Shown in pieces: positions 1-5,993 of a DNA stretch of 64,000 nt. Below the pieces are notes generated by a model. It ran no database searches. It saw only the letters and a list, made by a program, of their open reading frames with translations, and had not been told where the DNA came from. The number at the start of each line of letters is the position of its first letter. The first letter of the stretch is position 1. This DNA is from Phenylobacterium sp. Root1290 (GTDB lineage: Bacteria > Pseudomonadota > Alphaproteobacteria > Caulobacterales > Caulobacteraceae), in the NCBI RefSeq assembly GCF_001425305.1, contig NZ_LMEE01000001.1:1254183-1318182 (forward strand). Direction: 5' to 3'. The translations under genes and the position numbers were made by a program.

Positions 1-852
1 GAGAAGGACGTGGTCGAGCGCCGCACGCGCCGCCTGGCCGAGGGCGGCGTCGAGTTCAGGCTGTCGTTCGAGGTCGGCCGCGACGCCTCGCTGGAGGAGC
101 TGCGCGCCCGCCACGACTCCATCCTCATCGCCACCGGCGTCTACGCCGCGCGCGAACTGGTCGCGCCTGGCGCGGGTTCAGCCGGGGTCGCCCCGGCGCT
201 CGACTACCTGATCGCCTCGAACCGCGTCGGCCTGGGCGACAGCGTTCCGGCCCACGACAGCGGCGAGCTCAACGCCGCGGGCCGCGACGTGGTCGTGGTC
301 GGCGGCGGCGACACCGCCATGGACTGCGTGCGCACCGCCGTGCGCCAGGGCGCCAAGTCGGTCACCTGCCTCTATCGCCGCGACCGCGCCAACATGCCCG
401 GCTCGGCCCGCGAGGTCGCCCACGCCGAGGAGGAAGGCGTCGTCTTCGAATGGCTGGCCGCGCCGCGCGCGGTGCTGGGCGACGCCGGCCGCGCCGACGG
501 CCTGCGCGCCATCCGCATGCGCCTGGGCCCGCCCGACGCCACCGGCCGCCAGGCGCCGGAAGAGGTCGAGGGGGGTGACTTCGACCTGCCCGCCGACCTC
601 GTCATCAAGGCCCTGGGCTTCGATCCTGAGGACTTGCCGACCCTGTTCGCAGCGCCCGACCTGACCGTGTCGCGCTGGGGCACGCTGAAGGCCGACTTCA
701 GGACCCAGGCGACCAGCCTGCCGGGCGTCTTCGCCGCCGGCGACATCGTCCGCGGCGCCTCGCTGGTGGTCTGGGCCATCCGCGACGGCCGCGACGCCGC
801 CGACGCCATCCACCAGTACCTCTCGCAGCGCGCGCTGCTGGCCGCGGAGTGA
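1..852 (+). CDS. gltD: Glutamate synthase small subunit, C-terminal part (cut by window edge)
   Basis: The reading frame is open from the first base, so the start lies outside the window and about 283 C-terminal residues are visible, against roughly 470 for the family. The protein passes electrons from NADPH through FAD to the large subunit during glutamate formation from glutamine and 2-oxoglutarate. Seen here are a Rossmann motif (VVVVGGGDTAMD) with the following LYRRDRANMPG segment typical of the NADPH domain, and a C-terminal FAD motif (GVFAAGDIVRGASLVVWAI). The stop codon is followed at once by gltB, so the pair is an operon in the order gltD-gltB. Identification is firm; only the N-terminal Fe-S region is missing from view. 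Confidence 0.93.
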   Translation, partial: EKDVVERRTRRLAEGGVEFRLSFEVGRDASLEELRARHDSILIATGVYAARELVAPGAGSAGVAPALDYLIASNRVGLGDSVPAHDSGELNAAGRDVVVVGGGDTAMDCVRTAVRQGAKSVTCLYRRDRANMPGSAREVAHAEEEGVVFEWLAAPRAVLGDAGRADGLRAIRMRLGPPDATGRQAPEEVEGGDFDLPADLVIKALGFDPEDLPTLFAAPDLTVSRWGTLKADFRTQATSLPGVFAAGDIVRGASLVVWAIRDGRDAADAIHQYLSQRALLAAE

Positions 853-857
853 TCCCG

Positions 858-3800
858 ATGAGCAACCACCGAGACGAATGGTTCGAAGGCGACACCGCCC
901 GCTACCTCGCCAACCGCGCCGCCCTGACCGCCGCCCATGCCTACTCCCCCGGCGACGAACGCGACGCCTGCGGCGTGGGCCTCGTCTGCGCGGTCGACGG
1001 CAAGCCGCGCCGCGAGGTGGTCGAGCTGGCCATCACGGCGCTCAAGAGCGTCTGGCACCGCGGCGCAGTCGACGCCGACGGCAAGACCGGCGACGGCGCC
1101 GGCGTGCTGCTGTCGGTCCCGCAGGACTTCTTCGCCGACCAGGTGACCCGCATCGGCCACGTCCTGCGCCCCGGCCCCATCGCCGTCGGTCAGGTGTTCC
1201 TGCCGCGCAACGACCTCGGCGCCCAGGAAGCGGCCCGGACCATCGTCGAGGCCGAGGCCCTGCGCTTCGGCTTCTACATCTATGGCTGGCGCCAGGTGCC
1301 CGTCGACACCTCGGTGATTGGCGAGAAGGCCAACGCCACCCGCCCCGAGATCGAACAGATCATGCTCTCGCCGCCGGCCGGCCTGACCGGCGAGGCGCTG
1401 GAGCGCGCCCTGTTCCTGTGCCGCAAGCGCATCGAGAAGCGCGTCGCCGCCGCCGGCATCCAGCACTTCTACCTGTGCTCGTTCTCGGCCCGGCAGCTGA
1501 TCTACAAGGGCATGTTCCTCGCCCAGCACATCGACGAGTTCTATCCCGACCTGCGCGACGAACGCTTCGCCGCCGCGGTGGCGATTTTCCACCAGCGCTA
1601 TTCAACCAACACCTTCCCCGAATGGCGCCTGGCCCAGCCCTTCCGGATGCTCGCCCACAACGGCGAGATCAACACCAAGAAGGGCAACGTCAACTGGATG
1701 CGCTCGCACGAGATCCGGATGGCGGCCGACGCCTTCGGCGAGATGGGCGACGACGTGAAGCCGGTCATCCAGGACCCCCACGGCTCGGACTCCATGGCCC
1801 TCGACAACACCTTCGAGGTGCTGGTCCGCGCCGGCCGCGACGCTCCCATGGTCAAGGCGCTGCTGATCCCCGAGGCCTGGAACGCCCGCTCGGACGAACA
1901 GATCAAGCCGGCGCACAAGGCGCTCTACGCCTACTGCAACTCGGTGATGGAGCCGTGGGACGGTCCCGCCGCGGTCTGCGCCACCGACGGCCGCTGGGTC
2001 GTGGCGGGCAAGGACCGCAACGGCCTGCGTCCCCTGCGCGTCGCCTATACCGACGACGGCCTGCTGATCATGGGCTCCGAAGCGGGCATGTGCCGGGTCG
2101 ACGAGGCCCGCATCATCAAGAAGAGCCACATCTCCGCCGGCCGGATGATCGCCGTCGACCTGGCCGAGGGCCGCCTTTACGGCGAGGACGAGATCATCGA
2201 CGAACTCGCCGTCCGCCATCCCTACGACCAGTGGCTCGGCAACATGGTCGACCTGGAGAACGAGATCGCCCCCGGCCCCGAGCCGCGCGCCTATTCGCGT
2301 GAGGAGCTGATCCGCCGCCAGGTCGCCGCCGGCATGAGCCTCGAGGACATCGAGCTGATCCTCGCGCCTATGGTCGAGGACGCCAAGGAGGCCGTCGGCT
2401 CGATGGGCGACGACGCGCCCCTGGCCGTGCTCAGCGACCAGTACCGGCCGCTGTCGCACTTCTTCCGCCAGAACTTCAGCCAGGTGACCAACCCGCCGAT
2501 CGACTCGCTGCGCGAGACCTCGGTGATGAGCCTGAAGACCCGCTTCAAGAACCTCGGCAACATCCTGGCCCAGGACGAGGCCCAGACCGACGTCTTCGTG
2601 CTGGAGAGCCCGGTGCTGACCACCGGCATGTACCAGCGCATCGCCCAGTTCATCGGCGACAAGAACGTCGCCGTCATCGACTGCACCATGCCGGTTCCGG
2701 CCGCCGAGAGCCGGCCCGGCGACGCCCTGCGCGCCAACCTCGACCGCATCCGCGCCGAGGCCGAGGACGCCGCCCTGCGCGGCTGCGCGACCATCGTCCT
2801 CACCGACGAGGCCGCCGGTCCCGAGCGCATCGGTCTGCCGATGATCCTGGCCACCGGCGGGGTCCACTCCTCGCTGGTCGCCAAGGGCCTGCGCTCCTAC
2901 GTCTCGATCATCGTCCGCTCGGCCGAGTGCCTCGACACCCACTACTTCGCGGTGCTGGTCGGGGTCGGGGCCACGGCGGTCAACGCCTACCTGGCGCAGG
3001 AGAGCTTCCAGGACCGTCTCGATCGCGGCCTGACCGGCGACCTGACGCTTCGCCAGCTCTGCCTGAACTTCAAGCACGCCATCGAGGGCGGCCTGCTGAA
3101 GATCATCGCCAAGATGGGCATCGCGGTGATCTCGTCCTATCGCGGCGGCCTGAACTTCGAGGCGCTGGGCCTGTCGCGCGCCCTGGTCGCCGAGTTCTTC
3201 CCGGGCATGCCCTCGCGCATCTCCGGCATCGGCCTGGCCGGCATCGAGGCCAAGGCTCTCGAACTGCACCGCAAGGCCTGGGACGCCGCGGCCATCTCCC
3301 TGCCGGTCGGCGGCTTCTACAAGGCCCGCCGCACCGGCGAGGCCCACGCCTTCGAGGCGCGGATGATCCACGCCCTGCAGCGCGCCTGCGACACCGGCAA
3401 CTACGCCGCCTACAAGACCTTCTCCGAGGGCATGCGGCGGATGCCGACCATCCAGCTGCGCGACCTGCTCGACCTGCGCTCGCCCGAGCGCGCGGTCAGC
3501 CTCGACGAGGTCGAGAGCGTCAACGAGATCCGCAAGCGCTTCCTGACGCCTGGCATGAGCATGGGCGCCCTCAGCCCCGAGGCGCACGGCGTGCTCAACA
3601 TCGCCATGAACCGGATCGGCGCGAAGAGCGTCTCCGGCGAAGGCGGCGAGGACCCGGCCCGATACAAGCCGCTGCCCAACGGCGACAACCCGAACTCTGC
3701 GGTCAAGCAGATCGCCTCGGGCCGGTTCGGCGTCACCGCGCAGTACCTGAACGAGTGCCGCGAGATCGAGATCAAGGTCAGCCAGGGCGCCAAGCCCGGC

Positions 3801-5423
3801 GAGGGCGGCCAGCTGCCCGGCTTCAAGGTCACCGAGCTGATCGCCAAGCTGCGTCACTCGACGCCGGGCGTGATGCTGATCTCGCCGCCGCCGCACCACG
3901 ACATCTATTCGATCGAGGACCTGGCCCAGCTCATCTACGACCTCAAGCAGATCAACCCTGAGGCTCGGGTCTGCGTGAAGCTGGTGGCCATGACCGGCAT
4001 CGGCGCCATCGCCGCCGGGGTCGCCAAGGCCAAGGCCGACGTGATCCTGATCTCCGGCAATGTCGGCGGCACCGGCGCCTCGCCGCAGACCTCGATCAAG
4101 TACGCCGGCGGGCCCTGGGAAATGGGCCTGTCCGAGGCCAACCAGGTCCTGACCCTGAACAACCTGCGCCACTCCGTGCGGCTGCGGGCCGACGGCGGCA
4201 TGCGCACCGGCCGCGACGTCGTCATCGCCGCCATGCTGGGCGCCGAGGAGTTCGGCATCGGCACCGCCAGCCTGATCGCCATGGGCTGCATCATGGTCCG
4301 CCAGTGTCACTCCAACACCTGCCCGGTGGGGGTCTGCACCCAGGACCAGGCGCTGCGCGACAAGTTCTCCGGCAGCCCGGAAAAGGTCATCAACCTCTTC
4401 ACCTTCATCGCCGAGGAGGTGCGCGAGATCCTGGCCGGCCTTGGCTTCCGCAGCCTCAACGAGATCGTCGGCCGCACCGACCTGCTGCAACAGGTCAGCC
4501 GCGGCGGCGAACACCTCGACGACCTCGACCTCAACCCGCTGCTGGTCCGCGCCGACCCCGGCCCGCACGCGCCGTTCTGCACGGTCGAGGGTCGCAACGA
4601 GGTGCCCGACACTCTCGACGCCCAGATCGTCCGCGACGCCGCCCCGCTGCTCGAGCGCGGCGAGAAGATGCAGCTGACCTACACCGTGCGGAACACCGCC
4701 CGGGCGATCGGCTCGCGCACCTCATCGCACATCGTGCGCAAGTTCGGCATGGAGGGCCTGCCCCCCGGCCACCTGACCGTCCAGCTCAAGGGCTCGGCCG
4801 GCCAGAGCCTCGGCGCCTTCGCCGTCCAGGGTCTGCGGATCGAACTCACCGGCGAGGCCAACGACTATGTCGGCAAGGGCCTGTCCGGCGCCACCTTGAT
4901 CATCCGCCCCGCCCCGCAACTGGCGGCCGCCCAGACCAACGCCATCATCGGCAACACCGTGCTCTACGGCGCGACCAGCGGGCGGCTGTTCGCCGCCGGC
5001 CTGGCCGGCGAGCGCTTCGGGGTGCGCAACTCCGGCGCCGTCACCGTGGTCGAAGGCTGCGGGACCAACGGCCTGGAATACATGACCGGCGGCGTCGCCG
5101 TGGTGCTGGGCCCGGTCGGCTTCAACTTCGCAGCCGGCATGACCGGCGGCATGGCCTATGTGCTCGATCTCGACGACCGCTTCCTGACCATGCTCAACAC
5201 CGACAGCGTCGTGGTCGAACGGATCGGAACGCGCCACTGGGAAGCCGAGCTCAAGGCCCTGGTCGAGGAACACGCCCGCGAAACCGGCTCGCCCCTCGCG
5301 GAAACCATCCTGCGCGACTGGGACCGCCAGCTGCCCAAGTTCTGGCAGGTCGTCCCCAAGGAAATGGTCCACCGCCTCGACAAGCCCCTGGCCGAGGAAG
5401 AAGCCGTGCACCACCGGGCCTAG
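858..5423 (+). CDS. gltB: Glutamate synthase large subunit
   Basis: This 1521-residue protein hydrolyses glutamine at its N-terminal Ntn amidotransferase domain, channels ammonia and makes glutamate on an FMN-containing central domain. Cys38 in DACGVGL is the expected catalytic cysteine exposed after removal of a short propeptide. Cys1144, Cys1150 and Cys1155 (CIMVRQCHSNTC) form the 3Fe-4S site after the FMN barrel, and the C-terminal glycine-rich beta-helix (GXXG repeats) is present. ATG 858 is chosen because GGAG at 846-849 sits 8 bases upstream; an in-frame GTG at 849 overlapping the gltD stop is the alternative. Length is normal for the family. Confidence 0.96.
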   Translation: MSNHRDEWFEGDTARYLANRAALTAAHAYSPGDERDACGVGLVCAVDGKPRREVVELAITALKSVWHRGAVDADGKTGDGAGVLLSVPQDFFADQVTRIGHVLRPGPIAVGQVFLPRNDLGAQEAARTIVEAEALRFGFYIYGWRQVPVDTSVIGEKANATRPEIEQIMLSPPAGLTGEALERALFLCRKRIEKRVAAAGIQHFYLCSFSARQLIYKGMFLAQHIDEFYPDLRDERFAAAVAIFHQRYSTNTFPEWRLAQPFRMLAHNGEINTKKGNVNWMRSHEIRMAADAFGEMGDDVKPVIQDPHGSDSMALDNTFEVLVRAGRDAPMVKALLIPEAWNARSDEQIKPAHKALYAYCNSVMEPWDGPAAVCATDGRWVVAGKDRNGLRPLRVAYTDDGLLIMGSEAGMCRVDEARIIKKSHISAGRMIAVDLAEGRLYGEDEIIDELAVRHPYDQWLGNMVDLENEIAPGPEPRAYSREELIRRQVAAGMSLEDIELILAPMVEDAKEAVGSMGDDAPLAVLSDQYRPLSHFFRQNFSQVTNPPIDSLRETSVMSLKTRFKNLGNILAQDEAQTDVFVLESPVLTTGMYQRIAQFIGDKNVAVIDCTMPVPAAESRPGDALRANLDRIRAEAEDAALRGCATIVLTDEAAGPERIGLPMILATGGVHSSLVAKGLRSYVSIIVRSAECLDTHYFAVLVGVGATAVNAYLAQESFQDRLDRGLTGDLTLRQLCLNFKHAIEGGLLKIIAKMGIAVISSYRGGLNFEALGLSRALVAEFFPGMPSRISGIGLAGIEAKALELHRKAWDAAAISLPVGGFYKARRTGEAHAFEARMIHALQRACDTGNYAAYKTFSEGMRRMPTIQLRDLLDLRSPERAVSLDEVESVNEIRKRFLTPGMSMGALSPEAHGVLNIAMNRIGAKSVSGEGGEDPARYKPLPNGDNPNSAVKQIASGRFGVTAQYLNECREIEIKVSQGAKPGEGGQLPGFKVTELIAKLRHSTPGVMLISPPPHHDIYSIEDLAQLIYDLKQINPEARVCVKLVAMTGIGAIAAGVAKAKADVILISGNVGGTGASPQTSIKYAGGPWEMGLSEANQVLTLNNLRHSVRLRADGGMRTGRDVVIAAMLGAEEFGIGTASLIAMGCIMVRQCHSNTCPVGVCTQDQALRDKFSGSPEKVINLFTFIAEEVREILAGLGFRSLNEIVGRTDLLQQVSRGGEHLDDLDLNPLLVRADPGPHAPFCTVEGRNEVPDTLDAQIVRDAAPLLERGEKMQLTYTVRNTARAIGSRTSSHIVRKFGMEGLPPGHLTVQLKGSAGQSLGAFAVQGLRIELTGEANDYVGKGLSGATLIIRPAPQLAAAQTNAIIGNTVLYGATSGRLFAAGLAGERFGVRNSGAVTVVEGCGTNGLEYMTGGVAVVLGPVGFNFAAGMTGGMAYVLDLDDRFLTMLNTDSVVVERIGTRHWEAELKALVEEHARETGSPLAETILRDWDRQLPKFWQVVPKEMVHRLDKPLAEEEAVHHRA

Positions 5424-5426
5424 AAC

Positions 5427-5532
5427 GGCGCCGCCCCCTCACCCTGACCTCCCTCGATCTGGAACATTTGCGGAACGATCTCTATAGTCCCCTCGCCCCC
5501 CTTGGGGGAGAGGGTTAGGGTGAGGGGGACGC
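5427..5532. repeat. Left composite GC-rich repeat flanking DUF559 gene
   Basis: The unit starts with GGCGCCGCCCCCTCACCCT (5427-5445), continues with a degenerate inverted arm, and ends with a 45-base palindromic element (5488-5532) of the form TCCCCTCGCC...GGCGAGGGG-like arms with GGGTTAGGGTGAGGGGG. The same 19-mer recurs at 5880-5898 and the same 45-mer, with one C fewer, at 5950-5993. The gene between them is thus bracketed by direct composite repeats about 455 bases apart. It overlaps an alternative TTG start at 5502. The function is unknown; it looks like a REP/BIME-type dispersed element. Confidence 0.85.
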
Positions 5533-5534
5533 CG

Positions 5535-5900
5535 ATGCCGCGCAACGCCTCGACTGCGCAGGCACGATCGCTACGCGCCAGGCAGACCAACGCCGAAGCC
5601 TACCTATGGGCGGCGTTGCGCAATCGCCAACTCGGCGGCTGGAAGTGGCGCCGCCGGGTCGGGATCGGTCCCTTCGTCGTCGACTTCCTCTGTATCGAGG
5701 CGAGGCTTGTCATCGAACTCGACGGCGCCGGCCACGCCGAACGCCGCGACCACGACGCACTGAGGACGGCCATGCTCGCGGCGCACCGCCTGCGCGTCAT
5801 CCGGTTCTGGAACCACGTGGTCTTCGAAGGCCGCGAATCCGTGTGCGACGCGATCCTTGCTGCGTGTGACGGCGAGCGTGGCGCCGCCCCCTCACCCTAG
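5535..5900 (+). CDS. DUF559 (Vsr-like PD-(D/E)XK fold) endonuclease-domain protein
   Basis: A 121-residue protein of the DUF559 family, related to very-short-patch-repair and other restriction-like nucleases. The core is visible: basic helix (GGWKWRRR), then GPFVVDFLCIEARLVIELDG with Asp50 and Glu61/Asp63 at the positions expected for metal binding, followed by the RVIRFWNHVV strand. The substrate is unknown for this family. ATG 5535 is preferred over a TTG at 5502 that lies in the repeat. The last residues (APSP) and the stop codon are encoded by the downstream repeat. It sits between two direct composite repeats, which suggests that gene and repeats move or spread together. Confidence 0.8.
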   Translation: MPRNASTAQARSLRARQTNAEAYLWAALRNRQLGGWKWRRRVGIGPFVVDFLCIEARLVIELDGAGHAERRDHDALRTAMLAAHRLRVIRFWNHVVFEGRESVCDAILAACDGERGAAPSP

Positions 5901-5993
5901 CCCTCTCCCCGAGGGGAGAGGGAAAAGACGACCCAGCCCGCACAACACGTCCCCTCGCCCCCTTGGGGGAGAGGGTTAGGGTGAGGGGGACGC
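5880..5993. repeat. Right composite GC-rich repeat flanking DUF559 gene
   Basis: Second copy of the composite repeat: the 19-mer at 5880-5898, a perfect 9-bp hairpin (CCCTCTCCC at 5901-5909 and GGGAGAGGG at 5914-5922, loop CGAG), a 27-base spacer, and the 44-base element 5950-5993. The 44-base element matches 5488-5532 except for one missing C in a C run. It supplies the stop codon and last residues of both flanking genes: the DUF559 gene on the plus strand and the membrane protein on the minus strand (TAA at 5978-5976). The hairpin may also act as a bidirectional terminator between these converging genes. Confidence 0.85.

Follow-up and report, generated by a model that had tools for sequence, protein, structure and literature searches.

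A 556 bp repeat-gene-repeat unit at positions 5434-5989 of the window (a 64,000-nucleotide stretch of a Phenylobacterium sp. Root1290 contig) is, with a probability that we put at about 0.57, a minimal mobile element in which the gene of a Vsr/EDxHD-fold endonuclease of the DUF559 family lies between two composite BoxC/PIT palindromic ends and spreads these repeats. Comparison with related loci suggests that the DUF559 family helps to spread repeats of hitherto unexplained origin. Ends and gene were found to be copied together within genomes, and to be there at some sites and missing at others, which supports the unit as the thing that is copied, and the purifying selection on the gene together with the clustering of repeat type with gene clade lends further support to the mobile element reading.

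Organization of the repeat-gene-repeat unit

The ends of the unit are the outer CCCCCTCACCC/GGGTGAGGGGG arms, and its size is close to that of paralogous units in other genomes (523-673 bp). On the left side the gene for the large subunit of glutamate synthase (849-5423, plus strand) stops 10 bp before the outer arm. The left outer segment (5427-5449, plus strand) is made up of the 19-mer GGCGCCGCCCCCTCACCCT and CCCCCTCACCCTGACC, and its arm at 5434-5449 pairs with 5513-5528. Repeat copy 1 (5488-5532, plus strand) stops 2 bp short of the ATG of the DUF559 gene (5535-5900, plus strand), which encodes a 121 residue protein with a predicted Vsr/EDxHD-type PD-(D/E)XK nuclease fold. This copy may supply a ribosome-binding site (GAGGGGG) for the gene, and the junction from repeat to ATG was near-identical in locus L078. 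Copy 2 (5880-5916, minus strand) is inverted and holds the TAG stop codon of the gene (5898-5900), and copy 3 (5950-5993, plus strand) forms with copy 2 a 103-nt inverted doublet (5887-5989). A convergent Bestrophin-like gene (PF14023; 5976-6806, minus strand) has its TAA stop and last codons (..AASPSP) inside copy 3, which fits insertion of the unit at the tail of that gene.

The preliminary description of this DNA had placed one 19-mer at 5427-5445 and 5880-5898 and a 44-45-base palindromic element at 5488-5532 and 5950-5993, and both pairs were confirmed, the 19-mers with 100% identity and the longer elements with 36 identical bases (5497-5532 and 5958-5993). It had described two direct copies of a composite repeat; both are present, but there are three copies in all and the inverted third one at 5888-5907 had been missed. 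When up to three mismatches were allowed the core GAGAGGGNNAGGGTGAGGGG gave three matches in the window, each with no mismatch, compared with 0.16 expected from shuffles. The inverted core at 5888-5907 (minus strand) carries the stop codon of the DUF559 gene (CCCTCACCCTAG), so that both sides of the unit are inverted composites (5434-5528 and 5887-5989), and since the stop is read from CCCTCACCCTAG within copy 2 the DUF559 protein ends in a repeat-coded A-P-S-P. The S-P-S-P at the C-terminus of the Bestrophin-like neighbour is read from copy 3. Loci L064 and L113 were excluded from the reading of stop codons at repeat-flanked loci because of in-frame stops in the stretch. Folded as single-stranded DNA, the left and right composites (5434-5528 and 5887-5989) were better than 200 of 200 shuffles, with z = -4.6 and -7.1, respectively. 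For the 43-nt element by itself the advantage over shuffles was only modest (z = -2.0, with 6 of 200 shuffles equally good).

The DUF559 protein

A profile search assigned the 121 residue open reading frame at 5535-5900 to PF04480 (DUF559; E = 1.5e-34). An alignment of 22 diverse members of the family contained the invariant residues E21, D50, E61, D63, H67 and D74, in agreement with the preliminary description of a PD-(D/E)XK-type protein that retains Asp50, Glu61 and Asp63, and R14, R77, R90 and N93 were also invariant. Residues were assigned to Vsr positions by spacing, E21, D50, D63 and H67 being spaced in the same way as the residues that the consulted sections of PMC12907096 name for Caulobacter VsrA. 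An AlphaFold2 model of the protein (pLDDT 80) gave 3hrl as the top Foldseek match (E = 7e-6, TM 0.68), which was the sole match at E ≤ 0.001, followed by 3r3p, a domain of the EDxHD homing endonuclease I-Bth0305I (E = 0.014, prob 1.00), and by Vsr (1cw0/1vsr; E = 0.3-0.4, prob about 0.9). Judged from the model the protein probably has a Vsr/EDxHD-like PD-(D/E)XK fold and is a predicted nuclease; the E. coli member YcjD was earlier assigned to the PD-(D/E)XK superfamily, near Vsr, in the part of PMC1189080 used here.

The dN/dS ratio was 0.13 between the window gene and that of congener L107 and ranged from 0.04 to 0.44 over 11 distinct pairs, the highest value being that of ycjD where there is little divergence. 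By these ratios the DUF559 gene is under purifying selection. The protein matched 0 families of the PADLOC anti-phage defence profiles at E 0.01, an NCBIfam match to a portion of ProA was weak (E = 1e-5, with 23 bits where the cut-off is 1500), and one scan of viral contigs gave no relative of one type-B DUF559 protein. The annotated N-terminus of the Sphingomonas DUF559 protein (L071:2833-3000) resembles translated repeat, so that long N-termini in the family may be annotation artefacts.

Repeat family and its dispersal in the window genome

By core sequence and foldback structure the window repeat belongs to the BoxC/PIT/TM family, the core being that of Table 1 in Holder 2015 (PMC4666352). 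BoxC, PIT and TM(ECO), the intrastrand triplex repeat, have the same core CCCTCGCCCC..GGGGAGAGGGTTAGGGTGAGGGG. According to the parts of that paper considered here, more than 260 genomes contain such repeats, 23 copies are listed for E. coli K-12, and mobility genes were never found near the motif. Ten Rfam matches were obtained at E ≤ 1, none of which reached the gathering score of its family.

A looser repeat pattern identified 41 sites in the window genome (4.26 Mb) compared with one for the reversed control. Inverted neighbours no more than 110 bp apart accounted for 27 of the 41 sites, where 0.04 neighbour pairs would be expected at random, and for REP repeats this arrangement is what is called a REPIN. 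The palindromes that flank the DUF559 gene are also dispersed as inverted doublets, as are those of RAYTs. The window gene was the single DUF559 match in this genome. A profile search found Y1_Tnp (RAYT) to be absent from it, and a RAYT was excluded as a hidden mobiliser there. On contig C1 (1.96 Mb) all 21 repeat sites lie in the last 36% (G000:C1 1259690-1767936), the first of them being the DUF559 unit, with no repeat site in the first 1.26 Mb.

Association of DUF559 genes with flanking repeats

DUF559 was searched in nested and overlapping samples of 119 Caulobacteraceae, 241 Alphaproteobacteria and 299 Pseudomonadota genomes, and matches were found in 90, 80 and 112 of these, respectively. 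For the flank tests 87 different loci were taken, which were best-scoring matches and not a random draw, and 81 were kept after the contig-cut loci L040, L048, L054, L061, L128 and L130 had been dropped. Near-identical rows were retained (e.g., L034/L035, L036/L037, L057/L112 and L158/L162/L171) and the loci are therefore not fully independent. In a motif-free pair test the two 300-bp stretches that flank the domain were aligned to each other in direct or inverted orientation. Pair scores of at least 20 were obtained at 24/26 family, 14/28 class and 13/27 phylum loci, a total of 51/81, and at 0/81 far controls with flanks 700-800 bp further out.

The motif set was picked after the loci were seen, whereas no tuning to motifs entered into the pair score. 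A repeat motif was present within 200 bp of DUF559 at 69 of the 81 loci, and on both sides at 48, compared with 8 and 0, respectively, in a far control of the same loci (900-1100 bp). Beyond 300 bp motif density was near zero for the family and class samples and low for the phylum sample. The 12 loci with no repeat motif within 200 bp count against the reading that the nuclease spreads the repeat. With the ends of the open reading frames as limits, the motif was found at 20 of 26 DUF559 genes (both sides, 12), near 1 of 29 HNH nuclease genes from the same genomes (both sides, 0; 29 of 30 loci passed the length check) and near 3 of 16 Y1 transposase (RAYT) genes (both sides, 0; four weak or partial loci were left out of 30, and 16 of the remaining 26 passed the length check). 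Chance, or a habit of any small inter-operon gene, found no support in the far-flank and HNH/Y1 controls. The preliminary description would have been refuted by DUF559 genes no nearer to the repeat than random genes, and this was not the case, as they lie much nearer to such repeats than control genes or far flanks do.

A first set of 10 single loci gave pair scores of at least 20 at five, from Deinococcus (L066), Pseudanabaena (L067), Picosynechococcus (L069), Sinorhizobium (L068) and Sphingomonas (L071), with controls of up to 17.5. The test was negative for E. coli ycjD (L033), Azospirillum (L064 and L065), Photobacterium (L070) and P. aeruginosa (L072); at L064 repeats were visible by eye on both sides. 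In a second set five of eight loci scored at least 20, with controls of up to 18, and L108, L110 and L114 were negative. A Candidatus Peribacteraceae contig (L113, Patescibacteria) was just over the threshold at 21, and L107 had a near score of 20.5 compared with 18 in one far control. The N. gonorrhoeae locus L237, whose protein is related to 3hrl, a DUF559 member of solved structure, had a pair score of 80, a value given without a far control. On these sequence comparisons the bracketing of DUF559 by repeats is general, being found in Pseudomonadota, Neisseria, Cyanobacteria and Deinococcus, and weakly in a Patescibacterium.

Although the repeat types differ they have a common grammar: an outer hairpin, for example CCCTCTCCC..GGGAGAGGG, is in many cases followed by a second one, and then comes GGGTGAGGGG or GGATGAGGGG. 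One genome (G003) contained two DUF559 paralogues with two different repeat types, each type being present on both sides of its gene. On a tree of 94 DUF559 domains, from which L060 and the contig-cut loci were omitted, 43 domains were typed and types A, B and C required 9 changes compared with 19.8 when shuffled (0/200 as low). Repeat type clusters on the DUF559 protein tree, and as the alignment is short and host lineage and gene clade are not separated this is to be read as clustering and not as proof of co-evolution.

Copied units and filled and empty sites

DUF559 units at different places of the same genome were found in five genomes, with 72-92% identity over 528-673 columns. The unit pairs were 92% identical over 673 columns in G116, 86% over 589 columns in G590, 86% over 555 columns in G082 and 78% over 528 columns in G086, and the units of G096 were 72-74% identical over 529-543 columns. 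Homology stopped at the outer hairpins or no more than about 25 bp beyond them, and in these five genomes the unit behaves as would a transposable element, with defined ends at different places. The G116 pair L239/L242 also shares flanking DNA, which indicates a larger duplication and not a unit copy, and G211, G577 and G515 contained shorter or weaker unit matches only. Several of the within-genome pairs are old, as judged by their identity (72-78%), which counts against the mobile element reading. Comparison of edges by eye gave no convincing target-site duplication, only short direct or palindromic matches.

A convergent intergenic site was followed in the rhizobial genus of G590, where the left gene was matched in 143/146 genomes and the best 30 loci were fetched. 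L281 was cut and unreadable. Among the best-matching 29 readable loci, DUF559 was present in 2, 17 were near-empty with the anchor of the right gene no more than 100 bp on, and 10 contained other DNA without DUF559, which counts against mobility of the unit. At L279 a dapA-like gene (by eye) and then a type-C-like repeat fill this site, which is near-empty in many congeners. Searches with S. meliloti and A. brasilense plasmids gave no empty site among the matches listed.

At the window's own site the unit is inverted in L078/L107, the DUF559 gene being identical in L078 and the Phenylobacterium contig L107, and congener L080 has neither unit nor repeat. In L079, L081 and L082 the interval between glutamate synthase and the Bestrophin-like gene contains unrelated REP-like palindromes, for which we assume the label CGTC. 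From these alignments the convergent site is, in congeners, a hotspot for palindromic elements. Empty sites, as a transposable element would have, were observed at L080 and at 17 of the 29 rhizobial loci. The preliminary description had asked whether empty sites with one repeat copy exist; empty sites do exist, some of them, as at L080, without any repeat copy. To judge from the sequences compared, gene-plus-repeat packages are copied or lost as units and the unit looks mobile.

At the G590 loci four comparisons of repeat copies over 101-112 bp gave a similarity of 93-97%, and two more gave 82-85%, while dS of the DUF559 gene between these loci was 1.5, so that the repeats have either been copied over one another or are strongly constrained. 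This would fit repeat-to-repeat conversion in a homing-endonuclease mode, in which DUF559 would cut alleles with a lone or different palindrome and repair of the break via repeat homology would copy the cassette in, the repeats serving as target and homology arms and being spread by other means. The second Foldseek match, to I-Bth0305I (3r3p, E = 0.014), is consistent with such a mode, as are the other palindromes found in relatives at the window's site (L079, L081 and L082) and at the rhizobial site (L279). We nevertheless consider it unlikely, since the near-empty alleles at L080 and at 17/29 rhizobial loci leave little room for a repeat and many alternative alleles are too short for a repeat-gene unit, which suggests that gene and ends arrive together. 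Gene-less inverted doublets would also go unexplained.

E. coli ycjD

The DUF559 gene of E. coli K-12 is ycjD, and TMECO no. 9 in the part of Holder 2015 (PMC4666352) considered (1,351,239-1,351,204) adjoins it and corresponds to the repeat at L033:4204-4241. The ycjD stop codon is in a degenerate second repeat copy and YcjD therefore also ends in S-P-S-P. Repeats are found on the 3' side of ycjD only, and the two-sided pair test was negative. Between fabI and sapF of K-12 (L033:4163-4829), ycjD with its BoxC repeats occupies the place of eefRABCD in other phylogroups, which puts the BoxC/DUF559 unit at an operon replacement. E. coli without ycjD was rejected as a clean empty site of the unit because eefRABCD sits there.

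In the part of PMC12817139 consulted ycjD marks phylogroups A, B1 and C together with ST69 and ST182. Repeats were counted in 60 rows taken at even steps, and the number of places in a genome that have a repeat, that at ycjD among them, had a median of 19 (13-27) in 37 ycjD-positive and 4 (1-16) in 23 ycjD-negative genomes, an association which reflects few evolutionary events, is confounded by phylogeny and is therefore suggestive only. Between fepB and entC (L172) K-12 has 186 bp that contain an inverted BoxC pair and that Nissle lacks, and the K-12 allele was covered to at least 80% in 2752/5426 genomes; as proof of insertion this pair was left unused since it looks as much like a deletion. 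For the BoxC pair between gcvP and ygfF there was no clean allele among the matches listed.

At least 80% of the ycjD region was found in 3364/5426 E. coli genomes, which together with the purifying selection on DUF559 would agree with a Vsr-like mismatch or structure endonuclease that is kept for the cell, the adjacent repeats being incidental or regulatory. Such a role has been proposed for Caulobacter VsrA (CCNA_02930), which holds a DUF559 domain and on which the SOS response of cells without the cytosine methyltransferase ScmA depends, according to the sections of PMC12907096 consulted. A host repair function predicts neither multi-copy units with copied ends nor presence and absence at sites nor association with repeats in several phyla, and we think it improbable as an explanation of the unit.

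Repeat abundance and DUF559 presence

In the 119 Caulobacteraceae genomes the type-A repeat was present in at least one copy in 56/90 genomes with DUF559 and in 8/29 without (p = 0.0013), and any copy of the type-B repeat in 32/90 and 2/29, respectively (p = 0.002), both without correction for phylogeny. Among genomes with at least five type-B copies DUF559 was found in 19/20, compared with 71/99 other genomes (p = 0.025, again uncorrected). There was no DUF559 excess among genomes with at least 10 type-A copies (19/24 compared with 71/95 others, p = 0.79), which was counted against DUF559-driven spread, and eight DUF559-free genomes with 1-162 type-A copies also count against a role for the nuclease. 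The preliminary description would have abandoned the idea if the repeat were equally abundant in genomes that lack DUF559: in terms of simple presence it was not, but at high copy number the difference disappeared.

G001, with no DUF559 match, contained 162 type-A copies, and G081, also with no match, contained 59 type-B copies, several of them at contig ends. In these repeat-rich genomes either the system may have decayed or the assembly may have gaps. Repeats are places where draft assemblies break, as with the contig-end copies in G081, and some absences may therefore be false. That another mobiliser, a RAYT or a transposase acting in trans, moves the BoxC palindromes with DUF559 as trapped cargo is the least probable of the explanations considered, for although repeats do exist without DUF559 (8/29 genomes), other REP-like palindromes occupy the window's site in relatives and 3/16 Y1 transposase genes lie close to such a motif, Y1_Tnp, the transposase surveyed, is absent from the window genome and was found in 20/119 family genomes, compared with 64/119 that have the repeat, and it seems unlikely that one and the same gene family would be the cargo in several phyla.

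Proposed mechanism and significance

If the unit is a minimal mobile element, the DUF559 nuclease would recognise its own hairpin repeat and cut or nick there or at a target, and host repair would then place a copy elsewhere, either of the whole unit or of an inverted doublet that lacks the gene. The gene-less doublets would be moved in trans, and the scattered BoxC doublets would be non-autonomous (MITE/REPIN-like) derivatives of the unit. A bolder proposal, to which we would give somewhat less than even odds, is that this is a categorically new class of transposable element in which a nuclease of the Vsr/EDxHD fold is enough to move a unit of ~0.55 kb whose ends are composite palindromes that may form triplexes, with BoxC/PIT/TM of E. 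coli and related G/C-rich palindromes of Proteobacteria, Cyanobacteria, Deinococcota and Patescibacteria as its MITE-like progeny.

DUF559 is a small and widespread candidate agent for the BoxC/PIT/triplex repeats, which have so far been without a known spreader, and as the candidate is present in E. coli K-12 (ycjD) and the structure of a relative has been solved (3hrl) the question is testable in a common laboratory strain. If the proposal is true, a nuclease fold would join the short list of enzymes that drive bacterial mobile DNA, and a function would be given to a large family of unknown function. In the open PMC literature searched we found no paper linking DUF559, YcjD or COG2852 with BoxC/PIT/TM repeats, and the link is not made in the parts of Holder 2015 (PMC4666352) examined.

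Comparison with known systems

From its model the DUF559 protein appears to have a fold in common with I-Bth0305I and the Vsr endonuclease. Unlike the EDxHD homing endonuclease and Vsr genes, the DUF559 gene is outside any intron or intein and carries its own palindromic ends, and in contrast to Vsr there was no methyltransferase among the three neighbours scanned at the DUF559 locus. The unit resembles MITEs and small insertion sequences in having inverted ends, gene-bearing and short gene-less versions, and copies within genomes. It differs from both in that its sole gene is outside the known transposase and recombinase families and a target-site duplication was not found.

The RAYT/REP/REPIN system, as described in the parts of Nunvar 2010 (PMC2817692) and Bertels and Rainey 2011 (PMC3116915) considered here, resembles the DUF559 unit in that a small nuclease gene has palindromic flanks, and the two are also alike in their dispersed gene-less inverted doublets and in the linkage of repeat type to enzyme type. 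RAYTs are Y1 tyrosine transposases whereas the protein of the DUF559 unit is a PF04480 member with a predicted Vsr-fold PD-(D/E)XK nuclease domain, and DUF559 presence and repeat abundance correlate weakly, unlike in RAYT/REPIN. RAYTs were described as single-copy (PMC3116915, parts considered), but one genome can have several paralogous DUF559 units, and these are gained and lost at sites in the manner of a small transposon, so that the likeness to RAYTs needs to be revised. The self-spreading, RAYT-like unit of the preliminary description is retained insofar as there is a repeat-flanked nuclease gene with dispersed doublets, but being multi-copy it is more like a minimal transposon with MITEs. 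In logic RAYTs, as portrayed in these sources, are the nearest described system, with an unrelated enzyme.
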